Part shown: positions 13,376 to 28,573 of the stretch, piece by piece
How the letters are laid out: each line of letters opens with the position of its first letter
Position numbering within the stretch: position 1 is the first letter of the stretch
Origin: Deltaproteobacteria bacterium
GTDB taxonomy: Bacteria; Myxococcota; B64-G9
DNA: 64,000 nt
Assembly: GCA_016935365.1 (NCBI GenBank)
Contig: JAFGRB010000211.1
Coordinates: 1-64,000, forward strand
Direction of reading: 5' to 3'
Translations under genes and position numbers: made by a program
The notes under the pieces: model-generated
The model's database searches: none
Told to the model about the DNA's origin: nothing
Seen by the model: the letters and a program-made list of their open reading frames with translations, nothing else

Positions 13376-13397
13376 AAGAGCAAGCTGTTGGATGAAC

Positions 13398-13426
13398 TTG
13401 ACAATCCGATTTCGAGGGCCTACTCT
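13398..13426 (+). promoter_or_regulatory. Sigma-70-type promoter at the head of the putative RiPP locus
   Basis: TTGACA (13398-13403), 17-base spacer, TACTCT (13421-13426), in the gap after the GlcF-type gene. Predicted leader is about 48 bases before ATG 13481. This is one of the better promoter matches in the window. Confidence 0.6.
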
Positions 13427-13480
13427 TGTCGCCGGATCGAGCTGAGGTCAACTATTTCTGCAATCGAATCGAGGGCGGTG

Positions 13481-14095
13481 ATGGCAAAAAAGACTTCGAA
13501 AAAAAAGGGGAAAAAGGCCATCAGGCGCGCCGTCAAGAAGGCGGTCAAGGCGGTGAAGAAGGCCAAGAAGAAGACCGGCAAGAAGCCTGCCAAGAAGGCT
13601 GCCAAGAAGCCTGCCAAGAAGGCTGCCAAGAAGGCTGCCAAGAAGGCTGCCAAGAAGCCTGTCAAGAAGGCTGTCAAGAAGGCGGTCAAGAAGGCGGTCA
13701 AGAAGGCTGCCAAGAAGGCCGTCAAGAAGGCCGTCAAGACCGTCAAGTCCAGGCCCAGCCCGAGGAAGGCCGGCAAGGCAGCGCCGACGAGGCCCGCAGC
13801 CAAGAAGCCGCGCGCGGTTCCGTTCTCGCTCGATTCCCGGCTGGCCCGTCAGAAAGATGTGGCCTGGCGCCTGATCGATGGCGAGGCGGTGATCATCACG
13901 CCGGCAGACAGCACCATGCACACCCTCAACGACACGGGCACGCGCATCTGGGAGCTCATCGACGGCAAGCGGACCGTGCGCGACGTGGCCCGGGCCCTGC
14001 AGGCAGAGTTCGAGGTCGAGTCGGAGCGCGCCCAGGATGACGCGCTCTGGTTCGTCGAGTGCCTGGCCAAGAAGGGCCTGATCGAGGGCAGCTGA
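13481..14095 (+). CDS. PqqD-type peptide-recognition protein with H1-like lysine-rich N-terminus
   Basis: 204 residues. Residues 1-112 are almost only Lys, Ala, Val and Pro in KKA-A/V-KK-type repeats, as in histone-H1-like nucleoid proteins. Residues about 123-203 form a complete PqqD domain: WRLIDGEAVIITPADSTMHTLNDTGTRIWELIDGKRTVRDVA followed by FEVESERAQDD and a final helix ending KKGLIE. PqqD domains are RiPP recognition elements that grip a precursor's leader and present it to radical SAM or other modifying enzymes. A precursor-like peptide, a kinase and a radical SAM gene follow at 21.2-24.0 kb. The fusion to a DNA- or polyanion-binding-like tail is unusual. I used ATG 13481, with GAGGG just upstream and the KAAKK region in frame. 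Confidence 0.85.
   Translation: MAKKTSKKKGKKAIRRAVKKAVKAVKKAKKKTGKKPAKKAAKKPAKKAAKKAAKKAAKKPVKKAVKKAVKKAVKKAAKKAVKKAVKTVKSRPSPRKAGKAAPTRPAAKKPRAVPFSLDSRLARQKDVAWRLIDGEAVIITPADSTMHTLNDTGTRIWELIDGKRTVRDVARALQAEFEVESERAQDDALWFVECLAKKGLIEGS
13529..13744 (+). repeat. In-frame KAAKK/KAVKK coding repeat
   Basis: A tract of AAGAAGG-CTGCC and AAGAAGG-C(T/G)GTC units of 12-15 bases encoding the lysine-rich half of the PqqD fusion. Near-identical units make the length prone to change by slippage or assembly error. Confidence 0.8.
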
Positions 14096-14113
14096 ACCCG
14101 GTCTCACGCTCGA

Positions 14114-14143
14114 TTGATTTTCTCGACAGACTGAGAGTAGTAT
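14114..14143 (+). promoter_or_regulatory. Possible internal promoter before the giant lipoprotein gene
   Basis: TTGATT (14114-14119) and TAGTAT (14138-14143) with an 18-base spacer lie in the 99-base gap before ATG 14195. This is a moderate match. It could be read together with, or instead of, the promoter at 13398. Confidence 0.35.
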
Positions 14144-14194
14144 GGGGGGCACTGAGGGGGCTCTACCGTGCTCCTTGGCGGGAGGTTCGAGATC

Positions 14195-17100
14195 ATGAAG
14201 CTATCGAAAGTGTTGTGGATATTCGGCTTGCTTTCCTTGCTGGGTTCGAGCGCCTGCGATTGCGACGGTGACGCGGAGAACCCGTGTGACTGCGAACCCA
14301 CGATCACCTTCCTCAGCCCGACCGGCGGCGCGTTGACGGAGTTCAACGACACCAACGAGACCGAGGAGGGGATCCAGTACCCGGTTCGCATTCAACTTCG
14401 CTGTGTGCCCGACGGCACGTCCCTGACCTTCACGAACAGCCTCTCGCCGGGTGAGACGGTCCGCCGGGATGTATCCGACGGCGACGGCGATGGAGAGAGC
14501 AGCATCGAGTACGGCGAGCTCACCTTTCTCGACGGAGTCAACCGGATCTGCGTGACCGGCAGCGTCGAGGTCGCCTGGATGGAGGACGGGAGCCTGGGCT
14601 GCTCGACCCGGAGCGTACCCGAACTGGAGATCTGCAAGGACGTGACCGTACAGCTCGGCGTACCGGCTTGCCGTTTCGAGAATCCAGAGGATGGATCCAC
14701 GCTCACACAAGCGGATGACGACGATCCGATCGCGGCCGGCTTCCAGCAGGACGTGGCGGTCGTCTGCAAGGGCGTCGACGATGGACAGGATGTCGAGCTG
14801 AGCATCAACGCCAGGCCGCCCATCACGGGCGTGCTGGCCTTTTCCCGCGTCGACTTCGACAGCGTCGATCTGGCCGAGGGGGCCGATCTTTTGCACCTCG
14901 AGACCCAGGGCCAGGGCGGCGAGAGTGTGATCGCCGAGATCGGAGTGACCGTGGACACGGGCGGGTGCGCGGTCCGGCTAACCCCCATGGGCGGCGTCAC
15001 GTTCCGGGCCGCGGATGACGAGGAGCCCGGCGTCGAGGGCTTGCAGATCAGCCTGACCGTCTCGACCGATCCGGTCGGGGCCTTTGCCTGCGCGGATGGG
15101 AGCGCAGTCCGGGTCATCGTCGATGGACAGGAGTTCCAGGGCGTGCTTTCCGACGGGACGGCCATCGTGCTGGCCACTTTGCCGGACGGTGAGATCGAGG
15201 CCTTTGCCGAGGTGGAGGAGGCGGGTGGACGGACAGGGCGCTCGCTCGTCAATCGCTACTTCGTCTGCGCCTCTCCGGTCGAGGTGTCCATCCTGTCGCC
15301 GAGAGACGATCCCGATCACTCCACGCCCATCACCGATGCGGCGGATCGCGACCCCGCTCCGGGTATCCAGATCGCGGTCCGCGGGAATACCTCCGGGGTG
15401 CCGGACGCCGAGCGAATGTGGCTCAAGCTGGACGAGCGGATCGTCATGGACGGGCTCGATCCGCTTCGCCCGGTGGCCTTCCAGCCGGGCGGGGAGTACG
15501 AGTTCCGCTACCTCTCCTTCCTGCAGCCGGGCGAGCACGTCGTGAGCGTGGAGGGTGAGGACGCGTGCGGAGAGCGGGCCGCGATCAGCTCTACGGTCTG
15601 GGTGGTGACCGCCCAGGTCACCTGCCAGGTGGTGGACCCGGCCGACGGATCTACGCTGCTTGCAGCCGACGACAAGGACGGCGATCCGGATAACGACCTG
15701 CAGTATGACGTCGGTGTGCTGACCGCCAACGTCAGCGGCGGTGGCACATTCGAGATCCTCGTCGACGGCACGACCTTCGGTCCCTTCCCGGTGGACACGG
15801 ACACCCAGAGCGGGATGGGGGAGGTGCGCTTTGTCGATGGTCAGGGCATCAGCGTCCAGTGCCTGCTCTCGAGCGGAGAGGCCTCGCCCACCAACCGGAT
15901 CGATGTGGACGGCCATCCGCCGACGATCGAGATCACGGATCCTGCCGGAGGGGCGACTTTCCAGGATCCTGCTCAGGCGGTGTGCGTAGAGACGACCGGC
16001 GTGGAGAATGGGCAGCTCGTCACCGTGCTCGTGGAGCAGGGGGCGAGCTCGGACAGCGTCTCCGCCAGCATCACCGGCAACCAGGTCTGCATCGGCAACG
16101 TGCCCTGGTTCAGCGGTGCCAACACGGTCACGGCCAGCGTGAGCGATGCGGCCGGCAACCCGGCCGAGAGCACTCCGCTGGATGTGACCTACCAGTCCTG
16201 CACGGCCGAGCCGCAGATCACCTTCATCAACCCGGACCCGACCCCGCCGGTCGAGATATCGAATGCAGGTCCGTACACCGTCGAGGTCGACGTGACCGAG
16301 GTGCTCGACGCGCACGATGTCGAGCTGGTGATCGTGACCAACGGCGTGCCGGCCCAGCCCGTCACCCCGAACCGCTTCGGGGGCGGCCGGGCCGAGTTCG
16401 ACGTCGTGCTCGCCAATGGCAGCATCCAGTTCCAGGTGAGCGCGACCAACTTCTGCGGCACGGGCCAGGAGCAGCTGGATGCGCTCGTGGGCGATCCCAA
16501 CCTCCCGAGCATCGCCATTTCCTCGCCGGCGGACGGCGATTGCTCGCAGACCTCGACCGTGAGCGTGAGCGCCCAGACCACCAACGCCGACTCCCGGGTC
16601 TGCCTGTTCTGCTTCCGGCCGCGCTCGGCCGACGCGATACCCGAGTGCAGCCTGGCCACGCCGGGCTTCTGGACCACGGGTGCGGTCGACGGCGCGGGCG
16701 TGTGCAGCTCCCAGATCGACGCCCAGTTTCCGTCCGAGGGTGACTTCCAGATCTGGGCCAGCGTGTCCAATGACCACGGCAGCTCGACCTCGCCCGCGGT
16801 CGGCTACCGGATCGACGCCACGCCCCCGACGGTGAGCATCGACGAGCCTTCTGCCGGTGCCGTGTTCAACGCGTCGAGCCCCGACGCGGTGCCGGGCGGG
16901 GAGCTTCAGATCCGGGTCGTGGTGAGCGCCGACGTGCGCGACGGGCTGACGGCGGAGCTCACCGGCCACGACGGGATCGGAGACAGCCCGATGCCGGTCT
17001 TCTCGGGTGGGCAGATCACGTTCCAGCGGGTGACCGTGACCGACGGAGACCACAGCCTCGAGGCCCAGGTGACGGACTGCGCAGGCAACACCGGCGCATC

Positions 17101-20100
17101 CATTCCGGTCCAGATCACGGTCGACCGGATCGAGCCGGAGGTCATCGCGCTCGTCCCGGCCGACGGCAGCGCTTTCAGCGTGGCCGGCGACCAGGGCCTC
17201 GGCACGCCGGGCTTCCAGCGCAACGTCACCTGCCAGTTCGCTGCCGGCAGCATCCAGCAAGGCGACGCGCTGAGCCTGACGCGCCAGATCCAGGGGGTGG
17301 ACCCGACGCCGGTCGAGGTGGCCAGCGCCAGCCTCAACGCGGGCGAGACCAGCCGGAGCCTCGGGCTCGTGACCCTGCTGCCGCCTCCGCACAGCCACGG
17401 AAACCTGCGCCTCGTCTGCTCGGTGACGGATGCAGCGGGCAACGCAGGCTCGATCTACTCGGACATTCGGATCGACCTGGACGCCCCCGAAGTGGACATC
17501 ACCCGGCCGACCGACGGAGCGCAGCTCAACCGCTCGTGGGACATGTGCGCCCCGGCCGGCTTTCAGACCCAGGTCAACGTGAGCGTGACGAACATCGAGG
17601 CCGGGGACACCCTCTACCTGTGCGTGTGCGATCCGAGCGGCCCGAGCTCGTGCTCCAACGACGACGCGGGAGCATGCGGGGATGCGGGCTACGGGCGGAC
17701 GGTCACGCCCGGCAGCGTGGGCGGGCCCGGCACGGTGACGCTCAACTGCGTGGACATGCCCCAGGGCGACGTCCGATTGCGAGCCTACGCCGAGAACATC
17801 CCCGGCCAGGGCCAGTGGTCGGCGCCGGTGGCGGTCTACGTGGACTCGCTGCCGCCCACGGTGGCGACGCGGACCATCCTGACAGGCAACGGCGACGACT
17901 GCCTCAACCAGTCCGAGGGCGGCTTGCATGTCCGCCTGACCGTGGACGACCAGGGCAACAGCCTCGACGGGCGCACGGTGCGCCTGTACGAGGACTGGCC
18001 TCCGGGCACGGCGCTGCCCGGCGCGAGCGGGACGGTCGCGGGCGCTACGGTCGATCTGAGCGCCAGCCTGGTCTCCGGTGTGCACGTGCTGACGGCGGTC
18101 TTCTCGGACGCGCTCGGCAACCCCAACATGAGCACATCCCCGCCGATCACCGACCCCAACGCCACCTTCACGGTGACCGTGGATACAGCAGCGCCCGTCA
18201 TTTCCATTTCGAGCCCGAACAAGACCTTGCTGAACCTCTCCGACGACCTGATCTCGGGCGGGGATCTGGACTTCAACTTCTGCGTGAGCTGCTCGGGTGT
18301 CGAGGACGGCCAGGTGGTGACCTTCCTGCCGATGAACGCCACGGCCGCGGTGGCGGACGGCGCGGCCTGCGTGCAGACCTCCATCCCCGAGGGGGACACG
18401 CTGCTCGAGGTCCAGGTGCGAGACGCCTGCGGCAACCCGGAGCCCGGCTGGGCCACCGACCAGCTCGCGGTGCGTGCCGACCTGACTCCGCCTACGATCA
18501 GCTGCAATCCGCCCCCGGCGCAAGACGCTTACTACACGGATACCTCGGTCCACTTCATATGCCAGACCACGGGCACGGATTCGACCCAGCGGATCCAGGT
18601 GGTCTCGACCCAGGGCGGCCCGCGCTGCAGCCCCTACGTGGACGGCTCGGGCACGACCGACTTCTACTGCAACCTGCAGCCCGGGGTCCAGGACCTGGAC
18701 GTCACCGTGACCGATCCGGCCGGCAATGTGTCCGCGCCCTGGCAGAGCACCAATCTGGAGGTCGACATCGCGGGCTGCGACCTGGACGTGCTCGGTTACC
18801 TGCCGGTGGAGATTTTCAACGCCGCCGACGACAAGGACGCGGATCCATCGAACGGCCTGCAGATCGACGTGCAGGCCTGTAGCTCGACCTGCACCGGCAG
18901 CGACGTGCCCACGCCCGTGGTGCGGCTGCGGGTGAGCGGCGGGCTGGTCCAGACCAAGGACCTGGGCGCCGACGGCACGCCCGAGTGCGTGACCTTCTTC
19001 GATGTGAGACTGGACGACGGCGCAGCCGGCGTGGACGTGGAGGCCGAGATCGACGACGGTGGGGGGCACCTGTTCCCCGACGGCTTCCAGGTGGAGATGG
19101 TCGATCTGCTGCCACCGACTCTCGAACGCCTGGCCCCGGGCGAGGACGACGTGCTGTGCGTCGCCAGCCAGGGCAACCCCTCGGCCAACGGCGTGGACAT
19201 CCTCGCCGACCTGTCGACCGGTGCGCCCTGCAACATGGCCTTTGGCTTCCGGGTGACCGACGGCGGCGATCCGACCTACCCGGGCAGCCTTTCGCTGCGC
19301 GAGGGCGCGGACACCCGCGCGGGCCCGACCAGCATCACCGGCGTTCCGTCCCAGAACGTGAACTGGCCCAACGTGGCCCTGACCCACAATGCGAGCCATG
19401 CGCTGCAAGCCGTGGCGACCGACTACGCCGGCAACCCGAGCGTGATCGATCTGAGCGTGATTGCGGACGTGGTCGCGCCGGGCACGGTCAACGCCAGCGC
19501 CGCACTGGAGGACGAGCTGGTCGATCCCGCGGCCAGCCGCCACGCGGATGTGCTGGTGAGCTGGAGTGCGGTAGGCGACGACGGCGCGGACGGCACACCT
19601 GCGGGCTACGAGGTCCGCTACGCCACCGCGCCGATCAGCAGCGAGGCCAGGTGGCAGACCGCGGTGCCCGTCTACTCGGGCCCGAGCACCAGCCCGCCGG
19701 TCTTCGAGGGCTGGCCGCCGCTCAACACCTACTCCATCGCGGTCCGGGCCGTGGACGAGGTGGGCAACTACGGCGCCATCCCATCGCTCTCGCTCGCCAA
19801 CTACTGGCGGACTCACACCGTGGTGGCGCCGGGCGAGGGGGGCTACTTCGCCTATGGGCTTTGGAGCATCGGCGACGTGGATCACGACGGCTACGCCGAC
19901 CTGGCGGTCGGCGCGCACACCGAGCTCACGGGCGGCGGTGGCACGGATGGGGGCGCGGTCTACGTGTTCTACGGCCAGGACGACCTGAGCGCCTGGAGCG
20001 CGGGCCAGCGGCTGAGCAACGACACGGCCAGCGAGAAGTTCGGCTCCGACGTGGGCCGCATCGGCGACATCAGCGGGCCCGAGACCTGCGCGGGAGACGA

Positions 20101-21157
20101 CCAGGCCCGGATCGACGACTTGGTCGTCAGCGGGCGAGGGTACGGCAGCGGCCAGGGTCGGGTGTCGATCTACTTCGGCCGATGCCTGGCCAGTCTGCCT
20201 GCGGCGCCCGACATCGAGATCCGCGGCAACGTGGCCGGAGACCTCTTCGGTTACTACTCCGAGATGATCGGCGACGTGGACGGCGACGGCATCGACGACC
20301 TGCTCGTCAGCGCGCCGACCGCGAGCGCCGCGGGCAATGCTTATCTCTTCTTCGGGCGCTCCCAGGCGGACTGGGTGGCGGATAGCGGAGGAGACCGGGT
20401 GCTGTCCGCATCGGATGCCGATGTCGTGATCGTGGGCCGGGACGCGGAGGACTGGTTCGGCTACGCGAGCGGGATCAGCACGCTCGGCGACCTGGACGGT
20501 GATGGAATGTCCGAGTTCATCGTCGGTGCCAGCTCGGTCAACGACGCCTTCCTCTTCGATGGCCAGACCATCTATCTGGAGACCCAGACCGGCGACGGGA
20601 CGGCATACGCGGCTGCCGACAACCTGGCCATCTTCCACGAGGGTCCAAGCGGCATGTACAGCGGCTGCGATCCATACTACTTCTGCGTGGGTTTCGGCAA
20701 CCGCGCGGTGGGCAACGCGGACTTCGATCACGACGGATTGCCCGATCTGGCAGTTGCCGCCGCCTACTTCGAAAAGGTATACTTGTATCCCGGGGTGGCC
20801 GGAGGAGTCGACGATGTCGCTTTCAAGACGATCAACTCGACCGAGGGAAGCGTGTGGTTGGGTTGGGAGCTCGTCGTCGAGGATGTGAACATGGATGGCT
20901 GGCAGGACATCGCGCTGGGCACGAACACCTCGAACGGCCACAAGGCCATCTTCTACCTCAACCGGGGGAGCGCTCCCGAGTACTTCGGCAACTCACCGGA
21001 CATCGTCTTGAGCGAAGACAGCGAGTACTACGGGATTTCGATCGCGGTGGACGACTTCGACAGCGACGGATTGCCCGACGTGATCATCGGGAGCAACATC
21101 GCGGTCGACGCGGGTGGCGGTGACATGCGGGACGGGATGTTCTATCTGCACTACTGA
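14195..21157 (+). CDS. Giant surface lipoprotein: Ig-like repeats plus FG-GAP propeller
   Basis: 2320 residues from ATG 14195, with GGAGG 9 bases upstream (GTG 14168 would add nine residues). The leader ends GSSAC with Cys21, a lipobox. More than ten Ig-like/cadherin-like modules follow, many starting P-x-I-x-I-x-x-P and carrying an ADDxD...GxQxDV signature. A fibronectin-III-like segment comes next. The last ~450 residues contain FG-GAP/integrin-type calcium loops such as DVDHDGYADLAVG, DVDGDGIDDLLVS, DLDGDGMSEFIVG, DFDHDGLPDLAVA and DFDSDGLPDVIIG. An extended adhesin-like or matrix role on the cell surface is inferred. It lies between the PqqD fusion and the precursor-like peptide on the same strand, 46 bases before the latter. 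Confidence 0.85.
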   Translation: MKLSKVLWIFGLLSLLGSSACDCDGDAENPCDCEPTITFLSPTGGALTEFNDTNETEEGIQYPVRIQLRCVPDGTSLTFTNSLSPGETVRRDVSDGDGDGESSIEYGELTFLDGVNRICVTGSVEVAWMEDGSLGCSTRSVPELEICKDVTVQLGVPACRFENPEDGSTLTQADDDDPIAAGFQQDVAVVCKGVDDGQDVELSINARPPITGVLAFSRVDFDSVDLAEGADLLHLETQGQGGESVIAEIGVTVDTGGCAVRLTPMGGVTFRAADDEEPGVEGLQISLTVSTDPVGAFACADGSAVRVIVDGQEFQGVLSDGTAIVLATLPDGEIEAFAEVEEAGGRTGRSLVNRYFVCASPVEVSILSPRDDPDHSTPITDAADRDPAPGIQIAVRGNTSGVPDAERMWLKLDERIVMDGLDPLRPVAFQPGGEYEFRYLSFLQPGEHVVSVEGEDACGERAAISSTVWVVTAQVTCQVVDPADGSTLLAADDKDGDPDNDLQYDVGVLTANVSGGGTFEILVDGTTFGPFPVDTDTQSGMGEVRFVDGQGISVQCLLSSGEASPTNRIDVDGHPPTIEITDPAGGATFQDPAQAVCVETTGVENGQLVTVLVEQGASSDSVSASITGNQVCIGNVPWFSGANTVTASVSDAAGNPAESTPLDVTYQSCTAEPQITFINPDPTPPVEISNAGPYTVEVDVTEVLDAHDVELVIVTNGVPAQPVTPNRFGGGRAEFDVVLANGSIQFQVSATNFCGTGQEQLDALVGDPNLPSIAISSPADGDCSQTSTVSVSAQTTNADSRVCLFCFRPRSADAIPECSLATPGFWTTGAVDGAGVCSSQIDAQFPSEGDFQIWASVSNDHGSSTSPAVGYRIDATPPTVSIDEPSAGAVFNASSPDAVPGGELQIRVVVSADVRDGLTAELTGHDGIGDSPMPVFSGGQITFQRVTVTDGDHSLEAQVTDCAGNTGASIPVQITVDRIEPEVIALVPADGSAFSVAGDQGLGTPGFQRNVTCQFAAGSIQQGDALSLTRQIQGVDPTPVEVASASLNAGETSRSLGLVTLLPPPHSHGNLRLVCSVTDAAGNAGSIYSDIRIDLDAPEVDITRPTDGAQLNRSWDMCAPAGFQTQVNVSVTNIEAGDTLYLCVCDPSGPSSCSNDDAGACGDAGYGRTVTPGSVGGPGTVTLNCVDMPQGDVRLRAYAENIPGQGQWSAPVAVYVDSLPPTVATRTILTGNGDDCLNQSEGGLHVRLTVDDQGNSLDGRTVRLYEDWPPGTALPGASGTVAGATVDLSASLVSGVHVLTAVFSDALGNPNMSTSPPITDPNATFTVTVDTAAPVISISSPNKTLLNLSDDLISGGDLDFNFCVSCSGVEDGQVVTFLPMNATAAVADGAACVQTSIPEGDTLLEVQVRDACGNPEPGWATDQLAVRADLTPPTISCNPPPAQDAYYTDTSVHFICQTTGTDSTQRIQVVSTQGGPRCSPYVDGSGTTDFYCNLQPGVQDLDVTVTDPAGNVSAPWQSTNLEVDIAGCDLDVLGYLPVEIFNAADDKDADPSNGLQIDVQACSSTCTGSDVPTPVVRLRVSGGLVQTKDLGADGTPECVTFFDVRLDDGAAGVDVEAEIDDGGGHLFPDGFQVEMVDLLPPTLERLAPGEDDVLCVASQGNPSANGVDILADLSTGAPCNMAFGFRVTDGGDPTYPGSLSLREGADTRAGPTSITGVPSQNVNWPNVALTHNASHALQAVATDYAGNPSVIDLSVIADVVAPGTVNASAALEDELVDPAASRHADVLVSWSAVGDDGADGTPAGYEVRYATAPISSEARWQTAVPVYSGPSTSPPVFEGWPPLNTYSIAVRAVDEVGNYGAIPSLSLANYWRTHTVVAPGEGGYFAYGLWSIGDVDHDGYADLAVGAHTELTGGGGTDGGAVYVFYGQDDLSAWSAGQRLSNDTASEKFGSDVGRIGDISGPETCAGDDQARIDDLVVSGRGYGSGQGRVSIYFGRCLASLPAAPDIEIRGNVAGDLFGYYSEMIGDVDGDGIDDLLVSAPTASAAGNAYLFFGRSQADWVADSGGDRVLSASDADVVIVGRDAEDWFGYASGISTLGDLDGDGMSEFIVGASSVNDAFLFDGQTIYLETQTGDGTAYAAADNLAIFHEGPSGMYSGCDPYYFCVGFGNRAVGNADFDHDGLPDLAVAAAYFEKVYLYPGVAGGVDDVAFKTINSTEGSVWLGWELVVEDVNMDGWQDIALGTNTSNGHKAIFYLNRGSAPEYFGNSPDIVLSEDSEYYGISIAVDDFDSDGLPDVIIGSNIAVDAGGGDMRDGMFYLHY

Positions 21158-21203
21158 GGTATCGATCCGGTTCTTCGCGAGGACGGATCTGCAGGAGGTG
21201 GCC

Positions 21204-21353
21204 GTGAAGGCGGAAGAAAAACGCAGGATGCCCTACAAGAAACCGAGACTGGAGTCGAAGGTCATCCGGATGATCATGCACACCTACTCAACGACCGTGA
21301 GCTCCATCGGGAGATACGGTCCCTTCCGGGAGTCACCGAGGCGCGAGCCCTAG
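21204..21353 (+). CDS. Candidate RiPP precursor peptide (49 residues)
   Basis: A small gene starting at GTG 21204 behind a strong GCAGGAGGTGGCC ribosome site and ending 4 bases before the kinase gene. The N-terminal part is charged and contains PYKKPRLES (Y11-x-x-P14-x-L16). The YxxPxL pattern is the leader motif bound by PqqD-type recognition domains in lasso-peptide precursors. The C-terminal part, roughly residues 20-49, contains HTYSTTVSSIGRYGPFRESPRREP. This offers Ser/Thr for a kinase and Arg37, Arg42, Arg46 and Arg47 for an arginine methyltransferase. Gly36 and Glu43 are spaced for an eight-residue lasso ring, but no lasso cyclase gene is in the window. Coding status is inferred from ribosome site, motif and context. 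Confidence 0.68.
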   Translation: MKAEEKRRMPYKKPRLESKVIRMIMHTYSTTVSSIGRYGPFRESPRREP

Positions 21354-21357
21354 ACCT

Positions 21358-22080
21358 TTGCACAGACCTTTGCTTTTTTCCTTCCACGCCTGTGGACTAC
21401 CCTGCGAGCTTCATTGCGGGCCGTCGCTCGATGAGGCGGTTGCCTTCATGCTGGCGCCGTTTCGCGTCGCCATCTCCGGCGGCTACCAGCTGGATCTGAT
21501 ACGGGATCCCCAGACCGAAACGGAGCGCGTTCGCACGCTCGGCCGGAGCGCCACGCAGATCCAGCTCGGCCTGGGCAGCGACAGTCCCGCCCTGGTGTCG
21601 GCTGCGCTCGGCATGCTGCTCGTCCACGCCCTGGGACAGAACGGGGGGCTGCTGCTGCACGGCGCTTTCATGCTGCGAGATGACAGGGCTTTTCTCTTCC
21701 TCGGGCGGAGCGGCGCGGGCAAGTCGACCGCAGCGCGAAACGCTCGAAGCCTGATCTGTCTCCACGATGACAAGGTCGCGGTGCGATATGTCCGCGGATG
21801 CTGGCGGGCGTTCGGTGTGCCGATGCTCGACAACCGGGGACGGCCTGGAAAGCCCGGCAGCGCGCCGATCGATGGCCTGTATTTCGTACGCAAGAGCGAT
21901 ACGCTCGATCTGGTCGAGCTTCGGGGGGCCGAGGCGGTTGCCGAGCTCGCCGAGAATGTGATTCTACCGGCCGAGTACCGGCATCGCCGCGTGTTCGAGA
22001 CGGTCATGGCGCTCGCCGGGGAGGTTCGCTCGAGCTTGCTGCGCTTCACGAGAGACTCCCGGATCGATTCGCTTCTATGA
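21358..22080 (+). CDS. HPr-kinase-like (HprK-related) P-loop kinase
   Basis: 240 residues. LLLHGAFM, the Walker A motif GRSGAGKST (116-124) and LHDDKVAV follow the pattern of HprK C-terminal kinase domains. Such kinases occur in RiPP clusters, including those that phosphorylate a serine on lasso-peptide precursors (PadeK/ThcoK type), and in the PqqD-associated HPr-rel-A type systems. No PTS HPr gene is nearby, so a peptide substrate is more likely than HPr. TTG 21358 is the first possible start after in-frame stops and leaves 4 bases to the precursor gene; ATG 21448 would drop a conserved-looking N-terminus. The next gene starts inside its stop (ATGA). Confidence 0.78.
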   Translation: MHRPLLFSFHACGLPCELHCGPSLDEAVAFMLAPFRVAISGGYQLDLIRDPQTETERVRTLGRSATQIQLGLGSDSPALVSAALGMLLVHALGQNGGLLLHGAFMLRDDRAFLFLGRSGAGKSTAARNARSLICLHDDKVAVRYVRGCWRAFGVPMLDNRGRPGKPGSAPIDGLYFVRKSDTLDLVELRGAEAVAELAENVILPAEYRHRRVFETVMALAGEVRSSLLRFTRDSRIDSLL

Positions 22081-23990
22081 CAGACGCGATGCTCACAGAC
22101 GAGCCCCTTTTCCGCTATCGGACAATCACGCTGCTCCCGAGCCTTCTCTGCAAAGCGCGCTGTCCGCACTGCTGTATTCCGCTCGAGATGAGGACGAGAG
22201 ACGACTACGATCCGCGCGTGATCGAAGCTATCTTCTCGTCGATGCCGACGGGCCTGCGCTCGGTGACGCTCTCGGGCGGTGAGCCCTTCGACGCGCCCGA
22301 GCGCCTGCTCGCCCTGGTTCGGCGCGTCTCCGATTCGGGATGCGACTGTCACGCGGTCACGAATGGGCGATGGATTGAAGACCCAGCACGAGGTAGGGAG
22401 TTGCTCGCGGAGGCTGCGCAAAGAGGTCTTGCGGGGCTTGCGCTGAGCGTGGACGCCTACCGCGAAATGCTGTCGCTGGAGTCGGTGAGCAGCCTGGTGC
22501 GCGATTGCCAACGGCACGGAGTGGAGATCGTATTCAAGGGCGTCGGGAGAGCATCTCGGCGGATGATCGAGCGCTACTGTGATGCTGCGGGGCTCGATTT
22601 CGACCTGGCCGTCCAGTCGATCTCCGACCTGGAGCGAGCTGGAACCGCAGCGAGCCTCCGCGCGGATCGGATCGGGGGGCCCCGGGGCGAGGGGTGCTTC
22701 CATGTCGCGGAGCCCGCGATCTACATGGACGGAAGCGTGCTCATCTGCTGCTCGGTTCATCTGTTCCAGGGCTGCGATGCCCTGCTGCTCGGGCGAGTCC
22801 TGGACGAGCCGCTCGACGCGATCCTGGATCGGGCCAGTCGCGACTTCCTGCTGGCCGCCTTGGCCTTTCTCGGCCCTCGGGCGTTGCGGTGGCTCGCGGG
22901 CAGGCGTGCGATGCCCGGGCGTAGCAGCTGCCGGGTTTGCATGGCCACGCTGGGAGATCCGGCGCTCGTGGCCGCCGCGCGCCGGAAGATCGCCGGCGAC
23001 CGGGCGCTTCGCAGGGATCTTGCAGGCCGCAGCATGCTGTTTTCACACTTTCTGGACCGAGAGATCCAGCAGGAGCCCATTGCGAGCCGCTACGCGACCG
23101 CCCAGGAGCACCAGCGCCTGCTGGCAGACGAGCTGCGTACCGGCGCATATCGGAAAGCGATAGAGTCGGTCGTACGGCCCGGAGACACGGTGCTGGATCT
23201 GGGCTGCGGTGTGGGGATCCTGGCGCTGTTTGCAGCCCGGGCGGGGTGCCGGCGGGTGATCGCGGTCGAGAGGGAGAGCATCATCGACCAGGCCCGCGAG
23301 GCCGCACGGCGGGCTGGCCTGGCAGAGAAGATCGACTTCGTGCAGCAGGACGCGATGCGGCTCGAGCTCGATGCGCGCGCGAGCGTACTGGTGCACGAGC
23401 AGATCGGCTGTTATCTGTGGGACGAGGGTCTGGTGCCCAAGCTGGCTCGCGCCCGCAGGGACCTGCTCGAGCCGGGTGGGCGCATCTTGCCCTTCCGGAT
23501 CGATCTCTTCCTGGCGCCCTGCGCCCACCGCTCCGAGCTCGAGGCCGGCTTGGACTTCTGGGCCGAGCCTCGCTATGGCTTCGACTTCCGGCACATGGCG
23601 CAGCGCCACTTCGCCGAGCTCTCCTGGAAGGCCGGCCGGCCGCTGGTGATCGAGCTCGACGACGAGTCCTGCTTTCTGGCCGAGCCTGCGCTCGTCCACA
23701 GCATGGACCTGCGCGCGGAGTACATCACGCCGGACAGGATCGAGGCGCGCTTTTCGCTTCAACCCGGGGCCGAGTGCACCGGCATGTGCGGCTTCTTCCG
23801 CGTCCAGCTCACCGAGACGATCTCGTTCTCCACCGGCCCGAGGCCCGGCCCCAACAACTTCGGCCAGATCTTCATCCCCTGCGCGCGGCGGATCCGAGCG
23901 CCGCAGGGGGGCGAGCTGCGATTCGTGCTCTGCCCCGCACGTCTCCCCGAGCACTGGCGCTGGGAGTTTCAACTGCAGGAGGCCTCGTGA
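22077..23990 (+). CDS. Radical SAM/SPASM-like enzyme fused to a PRMT-like methyltransferase
   Basis: 637 residues. The N-terminal radical SAM domain has CKARCPHC (Cys25, Cys29, Cys32; CX3CX2C) and LSGGEP (66-70). A SPASM-like Cys set follows (Cys207, Cys224/225, Cys233, Cys285, Cys288). Residues about 335-637 match protein arginine methyltransferases. EHQRLLADELRTGAYRKAI is followed by SAM motif I VLDLGCGVG (372-380), a double-E loop with Glu441 and Glu450 (HEQIGCYLWDEG), and a C-terminal barrel. In that barrel the usual THW position reads NNF. The inferred role is radical modification and N-methylation of the nearby peptide. Starts in an ATGA overlap with the kinase gene and ends in a GTGA overlap with the next. 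Confidence 0.85.
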   Translation: MTDAMLTDEPLFRYRTITLLPSLLCKARCPHCCIPLEMRTRDDYDPRVIEAIFSSMPTGLRSVTLSGGEPFDAPERLLALVRRVSDSGCDCHAVTNGRWIEDPARGRELLAEAAQRGLAGLALSVDAYREMLSLESVSSLVRDCQRHGVEIVFKGVGRASRRMIERYCDAAGLDFDLAVQSISDLERAGTAASLRADRIGGPRGEGCFHVAEPAIYMDGSVLICCSVHLFQGCDALLLGRVLDEPLDAILDRASRDFLLAALAFLGPRALRWLAGRRAMPGRSSCRVCMATLGDPALVAAARRKIAGDRALRRDLAGRSMLFSHFLDREIQQEPIASRYATAQEHQRLLADELRTGAYRKAIESVVRPGDTVLDLGCGVGILALFAARAGCRRVIAVERESIIDQAREAARRAGLAEKIDFVQQDAMRLELDARASVLVHEQIGCYLWDEGLVPKLARARRDLLEPGGRILPFRIDLFLAPCAHRSELEAGLDFWAEPRYGFDFRHMAQRHFAELSWKAGRPLVIELDDESCFLAEPALVHSMDLRAEYITPDRIEARFSLQPGAECTGMCGFFRVQLTETISFSTGPRPGPNNFGQIFIPCARRIRAPQGGELRFVLCPARLPEHWRWEFQLQEAS

Positions 23991-24940
23991 GCGCCTCGGT
24001 GGCCAGGGAGAAAGGCATCGAGAAGCGTGCGGGCGGGGATGAACCCCGCCCCTACGATGCCAGGGAGCCCTTTGTGATCCTGCCGGACGAGGCGGGCGTG
24101 CTGCTCTCGGATCCGGGACTGCTGCAGCTCGCGGACGAGCTCATCGCAGTGGGCGCTTGCATGGAGCCCGAGCTCCTGTGCGGGGACAGGCTCGAGCTGG
24201 AGCGCGTCGAGCGGGTGGAGCCGGGCTGGATCGCGGTCTTCGAGTGGCAGGGAAGGTTGTATGCCCATCGCGTCACCCGGGTTCGCGGGCGGCGATTCTG
24301 GGCGAGCGGCGACTCGCACCGGGGCGAGCAGGGGCCGGTGGACATGGCCGCGCTGCGGGGCCGGGTCGTGGCGGTAAGGCGCGATGGCGAGAGGCAGCGG
24401 ATAGCCAGTGGACTCGCGGGCCGGATCCGGGGCGGGCCGATCAAGGAGCTTCGTATGCTGGTCCAGCGCCACGCGAGCCTGCGACGGCTTGCAGAGAAGA
24501 TCCTCGGCAGTCCGGTGATCCAGATCGGCCTACGAGCCTGCCTGGGTGGGGTGCGTATCCAGGCGGAGCGCGATCCGGATCGGCTGCTCGCCATGGCCAC
24601 CTCGGCCGGCTTTCGGCTCTCGGAAGATCGGGTGCGGGAAGGGCAGATCAGAGCTTGCAGTGCGTGCGCTCGCCGGGCGAGCCGGCTAGGCTGGATCGTG
24701 GGCTGCGAGATCGAGCCGGACGCCATCGCGGCGCGGCTCTTCGTCCGCCCGCTCGCCCGGGGGCTGGGCTTGCAGCCGCAGCTTGTCAGCAGGCTCGAGG
24801 AGGTCGCCCAGCACGCCGGGCGCGGGTACTTGCTGCTCGCAAGTCCGACACCGGGCTACAGGCCCTTGCGCGAGGCCGAGCGCCGGAAGTGGCAGGGGCT
24901 TGACGGTGAGGGCTGGACGGTGAGGGAGATGACGAGATGA
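23987..24940 (+). CDS. S24/S26 peptidase-like protein with altered nucleophile and GNAT-like tail
   Basis: 317 residues from GTG 23987, which overlaps the previous stop and has CAGGAGG upstream. Residues about 50-130 resemble the S24/S26 (LexA/signal peptidase) core: GACMEPELLCGDRLELERV, AVFEWQGRLYAHRVTRV, ASGDS and a closing GRVVAV. In the canonical G-x-S-M-x-P box the serine is Cys58, and no obvious catalytic Lys is seen (HRVTRV, His94). Residues about 200-310 faintly resemble a GNAT acetyltransferase (ARLFVRPLARGLGLQPQL...A..AG.GYLLL). Either a modified leader peptidase or a non-catalytic binding domain is possible. Coupling to the radical SAM gene suggests a role in peptide maturation. 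Confidence 0.6.
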   Translation: MSASVAREKGIEKRAGGDEPRPYDAREPFVILPDEAGVLLSDPGLLQLADELIAVGACMEPELLCGDRLELERVERVEPGWIAVFEWQGRLYAHRVTRVRGRRFWASGDSHRGEQGPVDMAALRGRVVAVRRDGERQRIASGLAGRIRGGPIKELRMLVQRHASLRRLAEKILGSPVIQIGLRACLGGVRIQAERDPDRLLAMATSAGFRLSEDRVREGQIRACSACARRASRLGWIVGCEIEPDAIAARLFVRPLARGLGLQPQLVSRLEEVAQHAGRGYLLLASPTPGYRPLREAERRKWQGLDGEGWTVREMTR

Positions 24941-26649
24941 GGTCTGCGGTCTTGTTGCTTTCGATTCTGCTCGCGGCCTGTGATGGCGAATCGATCGAGC
25001 TGGTCCTGGATTCCGACTTCAAGCTGCTGCGCCACGACCTGAAAGACCCGGGGCGCTACGAGCAGGCCCTGAGCCTGCCTCCGACCTGGGGCCGAGCAGG
25101 CCGCTGGTTGCCGGATGCGAGGCCGTGGCAGCTGCTGCCCACCGGGACCACGCGCGCCCCTGGCCAGGCGAGCGAGATCCGCGTCCAGCTCGTCCTCGAT
25201 CCAGCGGCGGGCAGCTTGACGGGCCGTGCGGAGCTTGTGCTGGGCTCGGAGGACGAGGACATCGCCAGGGTCGAGCTGCTGCTCTCGGCCGCGGCCATCG
25301 ACGAGCTCGATGCGCAGGCGCCCGATGCGAGCTTCGAATACCGGCAGGGCCGGCTGATCATCTCGCCCACGAGCCCCGTGCCGGCCGGCCAGAGCTGGCC
25401 CATCGCGGTGGAGTGGCACGACCAGGACATCGAGCTCTACGTGGACGACTTTCCCGAGCAGGGCGGACGGGTGCTCGCCAACCGCCTCTCCGCCGAGGGC
25501 TCCTTCTTCAGCTACGGCTACTGGTACTGGCCCGTCTTGATCGGCCAGGCGCGCTTCGAGGGGATCGAGATCGAGGTCACCTTTCCCGACTCGATGACCC
25601 TGGTGCTGCCAGGAGAGCTCGTCGGATCGCAGGCGAATGCGGACAGCACGCGGAGCGAGCGCTACCGCTTCGACACACCGCATCAGGGCGTGATCCCGCT
25701 CGCCTTGGGCTCATACGAGCAAGTGGCCGGCGCCTGTGGAGACGCCGTGCTCGAGCTTTACGCCCTGCCGGGCTCCAGCTCCGACGGCTACCCGATCGTG
25801 CCGGCCACCTACGTGCCGATCCTGGAGGCCATGTGCGAGGACTACCGGTCGCGATTCGGCGAGCCGGCCTTCGGGGTCTTGCGCTTTGCCGGTGTGGACG
25901 AGGCGTTCGAAAACGGCTTTGCCGGACCGGGCTTGACCCTGGTGCCCAACTACGTCTGGGACGATGACGGCAGCGGCTCGTTCATCAAGCGCGACTTCTA
26001 TCTGGCCCACGAGCTGTCGCACACCTGGTGGGGCAACGAGGTCTTCGTGGGCGCCTCGCGAGACCTGTGGCTGCTCGAGGGCATGGCCGACTACTGCGCG
26101 GCCAGCTGTCTCACGAAGCTCCAAGGCGAGCAGGCCGGCAGCTGGACCTGGCGCTGGGAGGTGCAGCCGTTGCTCGAGCACTACACTGCGGGTGGCGCGG
26201 ATCACCCGCTGGTGCCCGACGAGGCCATCGACATGGAGCCGCGCATCTACTACATCAAGGGCGCCTGGGTCCTCAGGATGCTCGGTACGATCATGGGCGC
26301 GGAGGATCTCGATCGGCTCTTGCTGGAGATCCAGGACGCGCACGCCTTCGATGAGCTCGAGACGGAGCAGCTCACCCAACGCGCTGCCGAGATCGCCGCC
26401 GAGGACCTGGACTGGTTCTTCGAGCAGTGGTTGCGCGGCACGGGCATCATCTCAGTCCGGGAGGAGCACCGCGGTTTGGATGGCGACCGGCTGGAGTGCA
26501 CGGTCACCCAGCGTGCCGTCTGGGCCACCGGGCCAGAGCGCTACTTCCAGATGCCCATGGACGTCAAGGTCGAGCATCAGGGCCGAGAGCACCAGGAGAC
26601 GGTCTGGCTGGAGGGCGTGCGCGCGGTCTTCGAGCTGCCCGTGCCCTGA
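24937..26649 (+). CDS. Lipid-anchored M1-family metallopeptidase
   Basis: 570 residues. The leader ends LLAAC with Cys15 (lipobox), so the enzyme should sit outside the cytoplasmic membrane. Zinc ligands are His358 and His362 in HELSHTWWG with Glu359 as base, and Glu381 in LLEGMADY, the M1 spacing of about 19 residues. FENGFAGPG (324-332) sits where aminopeptidases have GAMEN. An ATGA overlap with the S24/S26-like gene means it is translationally coupled to the putative RiPP cluster. It could trim the exported product or simply be a co-expressed scavenging aminopeptidase. Confidence 0.83.
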   Translation: MRSAVLLLSILLAACDGESIELVLDSDFKLLRHDLKDPGRYEQALSLPPTWGRAGRWLPDARPWQLLPTGTTRAPGQASEIRVQLVLDPAAGSLTGRAELVLGSEDEDIARVELLLSAAAIDELDAQAPDASFEYRQGRLIISPTSPVPAGQSWPIAVEWHDQDIELYVDDFPEQGGRVLANRLSAEGSFFSYGYWYWPVLIGQARFEGIEIEVTFPDSMTLVLPGELVGSQANADSTRSERYRFDTPHQGVIPLALGSYEQVAGACGDAVLELYALPGSSSDGYPIVPATYVPILEAMCEDYRSRFGEPAFGVLRFAGVDEAFENGFAGPGLTLVPNYVWDDDGSGSFIKRDFYLAHELSHTWWGNEVFVGASRDLWLLEGMADYCAASCLTKLQGEQAGSWTWRWEVQPLLEHYTAGGADHPLVPDEAIDMEPRIYYIKGAWVLRMLGTIMGAEDLDRLLLEIQDAHAFDELETEQLTQRAAEIAAEDLDWFFEQWLRGTGIISVREEHRGLDGDRLECTVTQRAVWATGPERYFQMPMDVKVEHQGREHQETVWLEGVRAVFELPVP

Positions 26650-27697: not shown

Positions 27698-28573
27698 CTA
27701 CTCGGGACGCGCCTCGGCCGGCATGAGTGTGAAGTGGGGGAACACGCCGCTGTAAGGCCCGGGCGGCTCGCGGGTCAGGCGATGTCCCGTGGCCTCGGCC
27801 AGGGCGTGGATCTCGGCCCGGGTGAAGTAGTGGCCGAAGCCGGCGCGCGAGATCACGTGGTCGCCCGGGTGGGGCCGGGTGCGCGCGGGCGCGCCTGGGT
27901 GCAGGCGGCGGCCGATCTCCCAGCCGAGCCGGAAGGCTCGCGAGCGGTGGATCTCGGTGTCATCGCCTCGCATCCAGACGCTCGCCAGGATCGGCCCCCG
28001 GGGGCAGAGAGCTCGAAGCGCGATCAGCAGTCGCCTCCGCTGCTCCTCGCCGGCCACGTGGGTGAGGCTCCCCCAGCCGAGCAGCACGCCGTCGTAGGGC
28101 GCATGCGCTCTGATCGACTGCGCGAAGCGGAGCTGGCCTCGCGTGTCGGGCTGGGCGAGCGCTTCGTAGCCGCCCTCGAGAAAGGTGAGGCACGCCGGGG
28201 TCTGCAGGCGCTGCGCTGCTTTCCGGACGAAGGCCGGGGCCGGATCGAAGGCCACCAGCTCGTATCCGGCCCGGGCCAAATGGACGAGCTCTCGACCCGT
28301 GCCCGCCCCGCCGATCAGCACGCGGGCGGGCGGGGGGCAGAGATCCGACTCGAGCCAGCTGCGCTCCCAGTCGAACAGGCCCTCTGCGCTGTAGTCGCCC
28401 CGGGACGAGTAGATCTCACCCGTGAGCCTGGAGCAGCTCATCGGATCGAGGCCCGCCAGCGCCATGCCTGCCAGTAGCTCCTCTGTGCGATCGAGCTGCC
28501 TGGAGAGAAAAGACTGCCAGCGCATCAGTCTCTGGAGCGTCGCAACGAGCAGGATCTGGTGTGCGAATGGCAT
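27698..28573 (-). CDS. Class I SAM-dependent methyltransferase
   Basis: 291 residues. SAM motif I is VLIGGAGTGRELVHLARAG, followed by the acidic ribose-binding loop VAFDPAPAFV and a post-motif region with YDGVLLGWGSLTHV. Substrate is unknown. The gene starts 9 bases downstream of the glycosyltransferase stop on the same strand, so the two are probably one operon and may act on a surface glycan. It converges with the HD-like gene. Confidence 0.8.
   Translation of the reverse strand: MPFAHQILLVATLQRLMRWQSFLSRQLDRTEELLAGMALAGLDPMSCSRLTGEIYSSRGDYSAEGLFDWERSWLESDLCPPPARVLIGGAGTGRELVHLARAGYELVAFDPAPAFVRKAAQRLQTPACLTFLEGGYEALAQPDTRGQLRFAQSIRAHAPYDGVLLGWGSLTHVAGEEQRRRLLIALRALCPRGPILASVWMRGDDTEIHRSRAFRLGWEIGRRLHPGAPARTRPHPGDHVISRAGFGHYFTRAEIHALAEATGHRLTREPPGPYSGVFPHFTLMPAEARPE

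Follow-up and report, generated by a model that had tools for sequence, protein, structure and literature searches.

A radical SAM-PRMT fusion protein in a conserved RiPP cassette of Myxococcota as a candidate bifunctional maturase

The window analyzed in this study comprises 64,000 nucleotides of a Deltaproteobacteria bacterium (Myxococcota; draft genome of 481 contigs) and carries a RiPP gene cassette in the order PqqD-type protein, FG-GAP giant, precursor peptide, HprK-like protein, radical SAM protein and peptidase (Table 1). The last cassette genes overlap by 4 bases, like those of a translationally coupled operon. In this genome, the only one in which such a fusion was found, the radical SAM protein and a PRMT-like domain form a single polypeptide, as the original prediction from the bare sequence had proposed, and the uninterrupted reading frame confirms that one gene joins the two domains. 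The arginine-rich peptide that had been reported nearby is real as well and is a precursor rich in arginine and lysine. When the two halves were searched separately, as had been suggested, the N-terminal half matched the radical SAM family (PF04055 at residues 24-166, E = 2.4e-11 for this half alone) and, faintly, SPASM, and the C-terminal half matched PRMTs (E = 2e-28). A separate gene close to the cassette but oppositely oriented (27698-28573, -) encodes a small methyltransferase-domain protein that weakly matches the daptide methyltransferase model.

Table 1. Coordinates of the cassette genes and of the two halves of the fusion in the window
Feature	Position	Strand	Details
PqqD-type discrete RiPP recognition element	13388..14095	+	PF05402, E 5e-19; true start probably inside the frame
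Giant secreted lipoprotein with Ig-like domains and FG-GAP repeats, ~2320 aa	14168..21157	+	PF01839, E 4e-28; PF19077
RiPP precursor, 49 aa, (V/M)KAEEKRRMPYKKPRLESKVIRMIMHTYSTTVSSIGRYGPFRESPRREP	21204..21353	+	GTG start, GGAGG upstream; 8-precursor alignment
HprK-like (ScmC-like) peptide kinase candidate	21358..22080	+	TIGR04249, E 1e-7, below cut-off
Radical SAM-PRMT fusion gene	22077-23990	+	637 aa, single open frame, uninterrupted
Radical SAM half (residues 1-333)	22077..23075	+	EpeE/YydG-like; CxxxCxxC 25/29/32, CC 224-225, C207, C285, C288
PRMT-like half (residues 334-637)	23076..23990	+	Glu441/Glu450, SAM motif DLGCGVG, Glu398, NNF 593-595
Signal-peptidase-like domain (archaeal/SipW-type) with GNAT-type tail	23987..24940	+	SEC11, E 2e-6, and GNAT structures (profile)
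M1-type peptidase lipoprotein	24937..26649	+	PF01433, E 1e-18

The cassette recurs in seven further Myxococcota genomes (L021-L024 and L133-L135); it is apparently an undescribed, conserved RiPP cassette and may in its own right represent a new RiPP family of this phylum. The copies in L021 and L022 end at contig ends, and those in L133, L134 and L135 show shorter giants, no recognizable M1 peptidase or reordered last genes. Like the precursor, the giant FG-GAP/Ig lipoprotein is a constant part of the cassette, occurring in every copy and at the equal position in L021, L022, L023, L024, L133, L134 and L135. The M1 peptidase gene is found at the equal position in L021, L023 and L024 and, as a fragment truncated by the end of the contig, in L022. 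For the PqqD-type protein, the best NCBIfam match is the lasso PqqD chaperone model, below its cut-off, and the nearest solved structures are the lasso RRE TbiB1 and a member of the PqqD family, followed at lower rank by lasso chaperones. Same-family PqqD-type proteins seen complete (this one, L023 18755-19270 and L024 18713-19117) carry a long Lys/Ala-rich, histone-H1-like N-terminal tail; those of L133-L135 are short and tail-less. In the HprK-like protein, His101, GxSGxGKST and Asp138 are invariant among five homologues. In three of five homologues, the signal-peptidase-like domain carries Cys where a Ser nucleophile is usual, whereas the His is invariant. Together with its GNAT-type tail, the domain is possibly a leader peptidase combined with an N-acetyltransferase.

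All eight cassettes contain a small frame between the giant gene and the HprK-like gene. The encoded precursors of ~49 amino acids have a YxxPx[LIV] leader motif and, within the same family, end in [Y/F]GPxRxxPRR, so that in every case a short peptide with a conserved leader is encoded beside modifying enzymes at the same position, as befits a RiPP. Alignment of the eight precursors revealed invariant Tyr and Pro in YxxP, together with an invariant Gly and Pro; the five same-family members share Y, P, S and K in the leader and GPxRxxPRR near the end. The arginine pair is specific to this family within the set, since the three distant precursors end in GAFKRPPPKH, GGFQRPPPPKK and GPFRDAPPDE... 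instead. No second copy of the precursor was found in the source genome, and no NCBIfam model matches it.

Turning to the radical SAM half, we found the cysteines 25/29/32 of CxxxCxxC and the LSGGEP motif (here LSGGEPF) that had been noted before, as well as SPASM-like cysteines. Among the NCBIfam models, TIGR04078 (YydG epimerase) fits it best, with 46 bits against a cut-off of 300, and the radical SAM protein of L023 reaches 78 bits, also below this equivalog cut-off. A profile built from five cassette members retrieved the EpeE structures 8AI1-8AI6 from the PDB (E = 6e-25; runner-up, 8e-5), a likeness absent from the original prediction, and the match spans profile positions 15-301 of 340, nearly the entire enzyme. 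For numbering, the 25 extra residues of the 344-residue chain, relative to the native length of 319 residues, were subtracted, so that chain position 248 becomes residue 223. The invariant CC pair (C224-C225 in the fusion) aligns with EpeE C222/C223, the second of which is changed to Ala in 8AI3. Cys223 is the proposed hydrogen donor of EpeE (PMC8326336); it is kept as Cys225 in the fusion and is invariant among the cassette radical SAM proteins. Furthermore, the two C-terminal cysteines align with EpeE, and C207 has about the spacing of the EpeE cysteine preceding the CC pair. EpeE Asp210, the residue altered in 8AI6, corresponds to Pro213 in the fusion, with slight doubt due to a local alignment gap. 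On this alignment, C-alpha chemistry yielding a D-residue is the likeliest reaction of the radical half and probably the correct one. In Fenollaria timonensis, two radical SAM frames related to the EpeE-like family lie next to each other with a slight overlap (L054 9052-10005 and 9998-10909).

The PRMT hallmarks claimed for the C-terminal half, namely, DELRTGAYRKAI, VLDLGCGVG, Glu441 and Glu450, were all found. With the fusion sequence alone, PRMT6 was the PDB match behind the E value given above; of the best 60 PDB sequences, 59 bear the name arginine methyltransferase and the remaining one is unnamed, and a profile with 19 homologues matched PRMTs across the entire domain (E = 2e-76). The half is thus far closer to PRMTs than to other methyltransferases, contrary to the better fit to a non-PRMT family that would have spoken against the original prediction. 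Models for PrmA, CpaM and daptide methyltransferases cover the generic SAM-binding core only, with NCBIfam scores far below cut-off, and were rejected. Glu398, the SAM-binding motifs and the Glu441/Glu450 pair are all intact, and the first Tyr of the PRMT YFxxY motif is absent. PRMTs use the two glutamates to hold the guanidine group, with the THW motif lining the arginine pocket. The fusion has NNF, as described before, at residues 593-595, in the column where two-glutamate relatives carry THW. In a comparison of 39 sequences, THW was present in each of the 13 standalone relatives that keep both glutamates and absent from each of the 25 Myxococcaceae relatives whose second glutamate is replaced by Ala or Thr; the fusion is the only sequence with two glutamates but without THW. 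In a tree of PRMT relatives it lies near the two-glutamate group on an end branch so long (1.21) that the exact origin of its PRMT half is unsure.

The Myxococcaceae PRMT-like family (L010, L011, L013, L146, L150, L151 and L158-L173), in which the second catalytic glutamate and THW are both missing, likely uses another acceptor or is non-catalytic; many of its members end in WRW or WRWQF. Selenocysteine at an in-frame TGA of many Myxococcaceae PRMT relatives was considered and rejected, as several translations show an ordinary terminal stop with alignment overrun. In the surroundings of the standalone PRMT relatives L025-L033, no RiPP genes were recognized, and these loci do not illuminate the substrate.

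We analyzed whether the fusion exists elsewhere. In the same-family genomes G005, G006, G001 and G008, the radical SAM protein is standalone, shares 33-39% identity along its length and stops close to the start of the fusion's PRMT half; it is likewise standalone in two remoter families (G093 and G094; G189) and hence unfused in all seven other cassette genomes. Searches of 195 Myxococcota genomes with the radical SAM profile and the PRMT half yielded no further fusion or neighboring radical SAM/PRMT pair, no fusion was found in a plasmid collection, and no other cassette has a PRMT gene beside its radical SAM gene. Standalone PRMT-like genes are common in Myxococcota (72 of the 195 genomes, including the source genome) and lie in unrelated surroundings where examined. 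A PRMT match is lacking altogether from three of the four siblings; the fourth, G001, has one on a different contig. Since the relatives' radical SAM proteins are standalone and most siblings lack a PRMT match, the PRMT was most likely added in the source lineage. The missing PRMT matches in siblings, together with the retention of the precursor arginines in PRMT-free cassettes, show that these arginines are not conserved through methylation. Arginine methylation would therefore be a lineage-specific addition and not core chemistry of the cassette, whose other members lack a PRMT; the conservation of the cassette and its PRMT-free members had not been part of the original prediction.

Several other explanations have to be weighed against these data. 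An assembly or base-calling artefact, in which the loss of a stop codon merged neighboring radical SAM and PRMT genes, is highly improbable: although the fusion is present in only one draft genome and all homologues found are separate, the halves share a common frame across the junction without internal stop, and the other cassettes have no PRMT gene adjoining the radical SAM gene. PRMT homology begins at about residue 336, a few residues past the end of the standalone radical SAM homologues. Because the linker consists of only these few residues, a lost stop would need to sit exactly at the domain border, between two nearly overlapping genes. The shared frame and the close fit of both homologies argue that the junction is not an indel scar, which speaks against the merger of two genes by sequencing error that had been named as a refuting case. 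The radical half may make a crosslink or another radical modification instead of a D-residue, which would be compatible with the PRMT reading; in favor of this are the unconserved Asp210 and the presence of the CC pair in remoter relatives of unknown reaction, but no other solved enzyme comes nearly as close as EpeE, whose hydrogen-donor cysteine is invariant. We consider this possible, yet less likely than a D-residue.

With regard to the PRMT half, arginine is the best single guess for the acceptor, at about even odds, because both guanidine-holding glutamates are kept; altered specificity and lost activity are real alternatives, as THW is lost. An active enzyme with another target, such as a precursor carboxylate or amine, or a partner protein like the PqqD-type protein with its basic tail, appears unlikely. 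The replacement of the pocket-lining THW by NNF, unique among the 39 sequences, would fit such a target, and the 25 Myxococcaceae relatives without THW and second glutamate indicate that the active site was altered earlier in this PRMT neighborhood. Against it stand the retained glutamates and the arginine-rich C terminus of a precursor encoded two genes upstream of the fusion. Still less probable is a catalytically weak or dead PRMT half that would serve the radical SAM half as a dimerization or substrate-holding module. PRMTs are known to form dimers, and the long end branch and loss of THW are in line with such a role, but the SAM motifs, Glu398, Glu441 and Glu450 have stayed intact despite long divergence, and the GC3 of the PRMT half (0.88; radical half, 0.78) resembles that of the neighboring genes.

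Our preferred reading is that the fusion is a bifunctional RiPP maturase that would epimerize, or otherwise radically modify, the adjacent precursor and methylate its arginines (probability about 0.5). The data show the single frame, both homologies, the conserved cassette and precursor, and the lack of the fusion in the other genomes searched; the two reactions, the substrate and sites on which they would act, and all of the processing are inferred. Against this reading count Pro213 at the position of EpeE Asp210, the low TIGR04078 score, NNF for THW, the arginines kept in PRMT-free cassettes and the occurrence of the fusion in a single draft genome. Leader recognition would fall to the PqqD-type protein, which would bind YxxPx[LIV] and deliver the 49-aa precursor to the enzymes. 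The radical SAM half would take the C-alpha hydrogen from a precursor residue, with Cys225 giving a hydrogen back to leave a D-residue, and the fused PRMT half would move methyl groups from SAM onto the guanidino groups of arginines in the RYGPFRESPRREP end. Ser/Thr phosphorylation may be the task of the HprK-like protein, and leader removal that of the signal-peptidase-like protein. Of the original prediction, the radical SAM/PRMT-like fusion beside an arginine-rich RiPP precursor stood; arginine is a candidate acceptor, given the change of THW to NNF.

PRMTs are the arginine-methylating enzymes of animals and plants, and with a PRMT inside a radical SAM maturase, RiPP chemistry would gain arginine methylation of the protein type. 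In a 2024 review of RiPP methyltransferases, arginine figures solely as the N-terminal alpha-N-dimethylated residue of plantazolicin, and PRMTs do not appear (PMC11285071). A full-text search, which had most subscription journals and all of bioRxiv outside its scope, returned no paper combining arginine methyltransferase, RiPP and radical SAM. The fusion in a gene set with an arginine-rich peptide suggests a modification not yet described among RiPPs. Tentatively, if one enzyme performs radical epimerization and PRMT arginine methylation on the same precursor, its product could be the first PRMT-modified RiPP, and an undescribed Myxococcota cassette would pair LPP- or lasso-like leader handling with epipeptide-like chemistry. 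The two-domain enzyme allows the coupling of radical and polar SAM chemistry to be tested on a single substrate, and the eight precursors offer a ready comparison of cassette members with and without PRMT.

Compared with known systems, the radical half resembles EpeE/YydG of the epipeptide pathway of Bacillus subtilis in its near-full-length profile match, CxxxCxxC motif, auxiliary-cluster cysteine spacing and CC pair with the hydrogen donor, and both pathways have a small precursor peptide. In contrast to EpeE/YydG, the fusion has Pro for Asp210, scores below the TIGR04078 cut-off and carries a PRMT, and the source cassette includes PqqD, HprK-like and signal-peptidase-like proteins. The other half shares with PRMT6, PRMT1 and PRMT3 the SAM motifs, the RT helix, the double-E loop and a barrel region aligned to the end (homologue profile), whereas NNF for THW, the missing first Tyr of YFxxY and a radical SAM protein as N terminus set it apart.

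The set of leader, RRE, kinase and peptidase resembles lasso and LPP pathways. With the linear polyphosphorylated peptide (LPP) pathway of Bacillota, whose precursors share a YxxP-type leader motif (PMC13381572), the cassette has in common a discrete RRE, an HprK-like kinase, an archaeal-type signal peptidase and the YxxP leader; all four elements of the LPP set (RRE, kinase, SpI, leader) are present, the SpI match being weak (SEC11, E = 2e-6). No NTP transferase or MsbA-like transporter of that pathway was seen among the cassette genes, and unlike LPP clusters the source cassette adds a radical SAM enzyme, a GNAT tail, an FG-GAP giant and an M1 peptidase; the text of the LPP paper does not mention radical SAM enzymes or methyltransferases (PMC13381572). 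A YxxPx[LIV]-like motif is bound by discrete lasso-peptide RREs, and the kinase-bearing lasso cluster bsf of Bradymonas sediminis likewise has a YxxPxL leader, a PqqD-type B1 protein and the HprK-like kinase motif residues (PMC10368454). Of the key residues reported for BsfK (PMC10368454), the HprK-like protein retains the His, the Lys-Ser-containing Gly-rich loop and the second residue of the Asp pair, the first of which is Glu in the L021 protein; a lasso cyclase C and a peptidase B2 are absent among the genes of 13388-26649. The SynChlorMet (Scm) cassette offers an ScmC-like HprK protein and a PqqD relative among the weak matches, but every match lies far below cut-off. The known parts are therefore epipeptide-like radical SAM maturation, a PRMT and lasso/LPP-like leader handling, which define no new category; the novel part is apparently the lineage-specific fusion within an undescribed conserved RiPP cassette.
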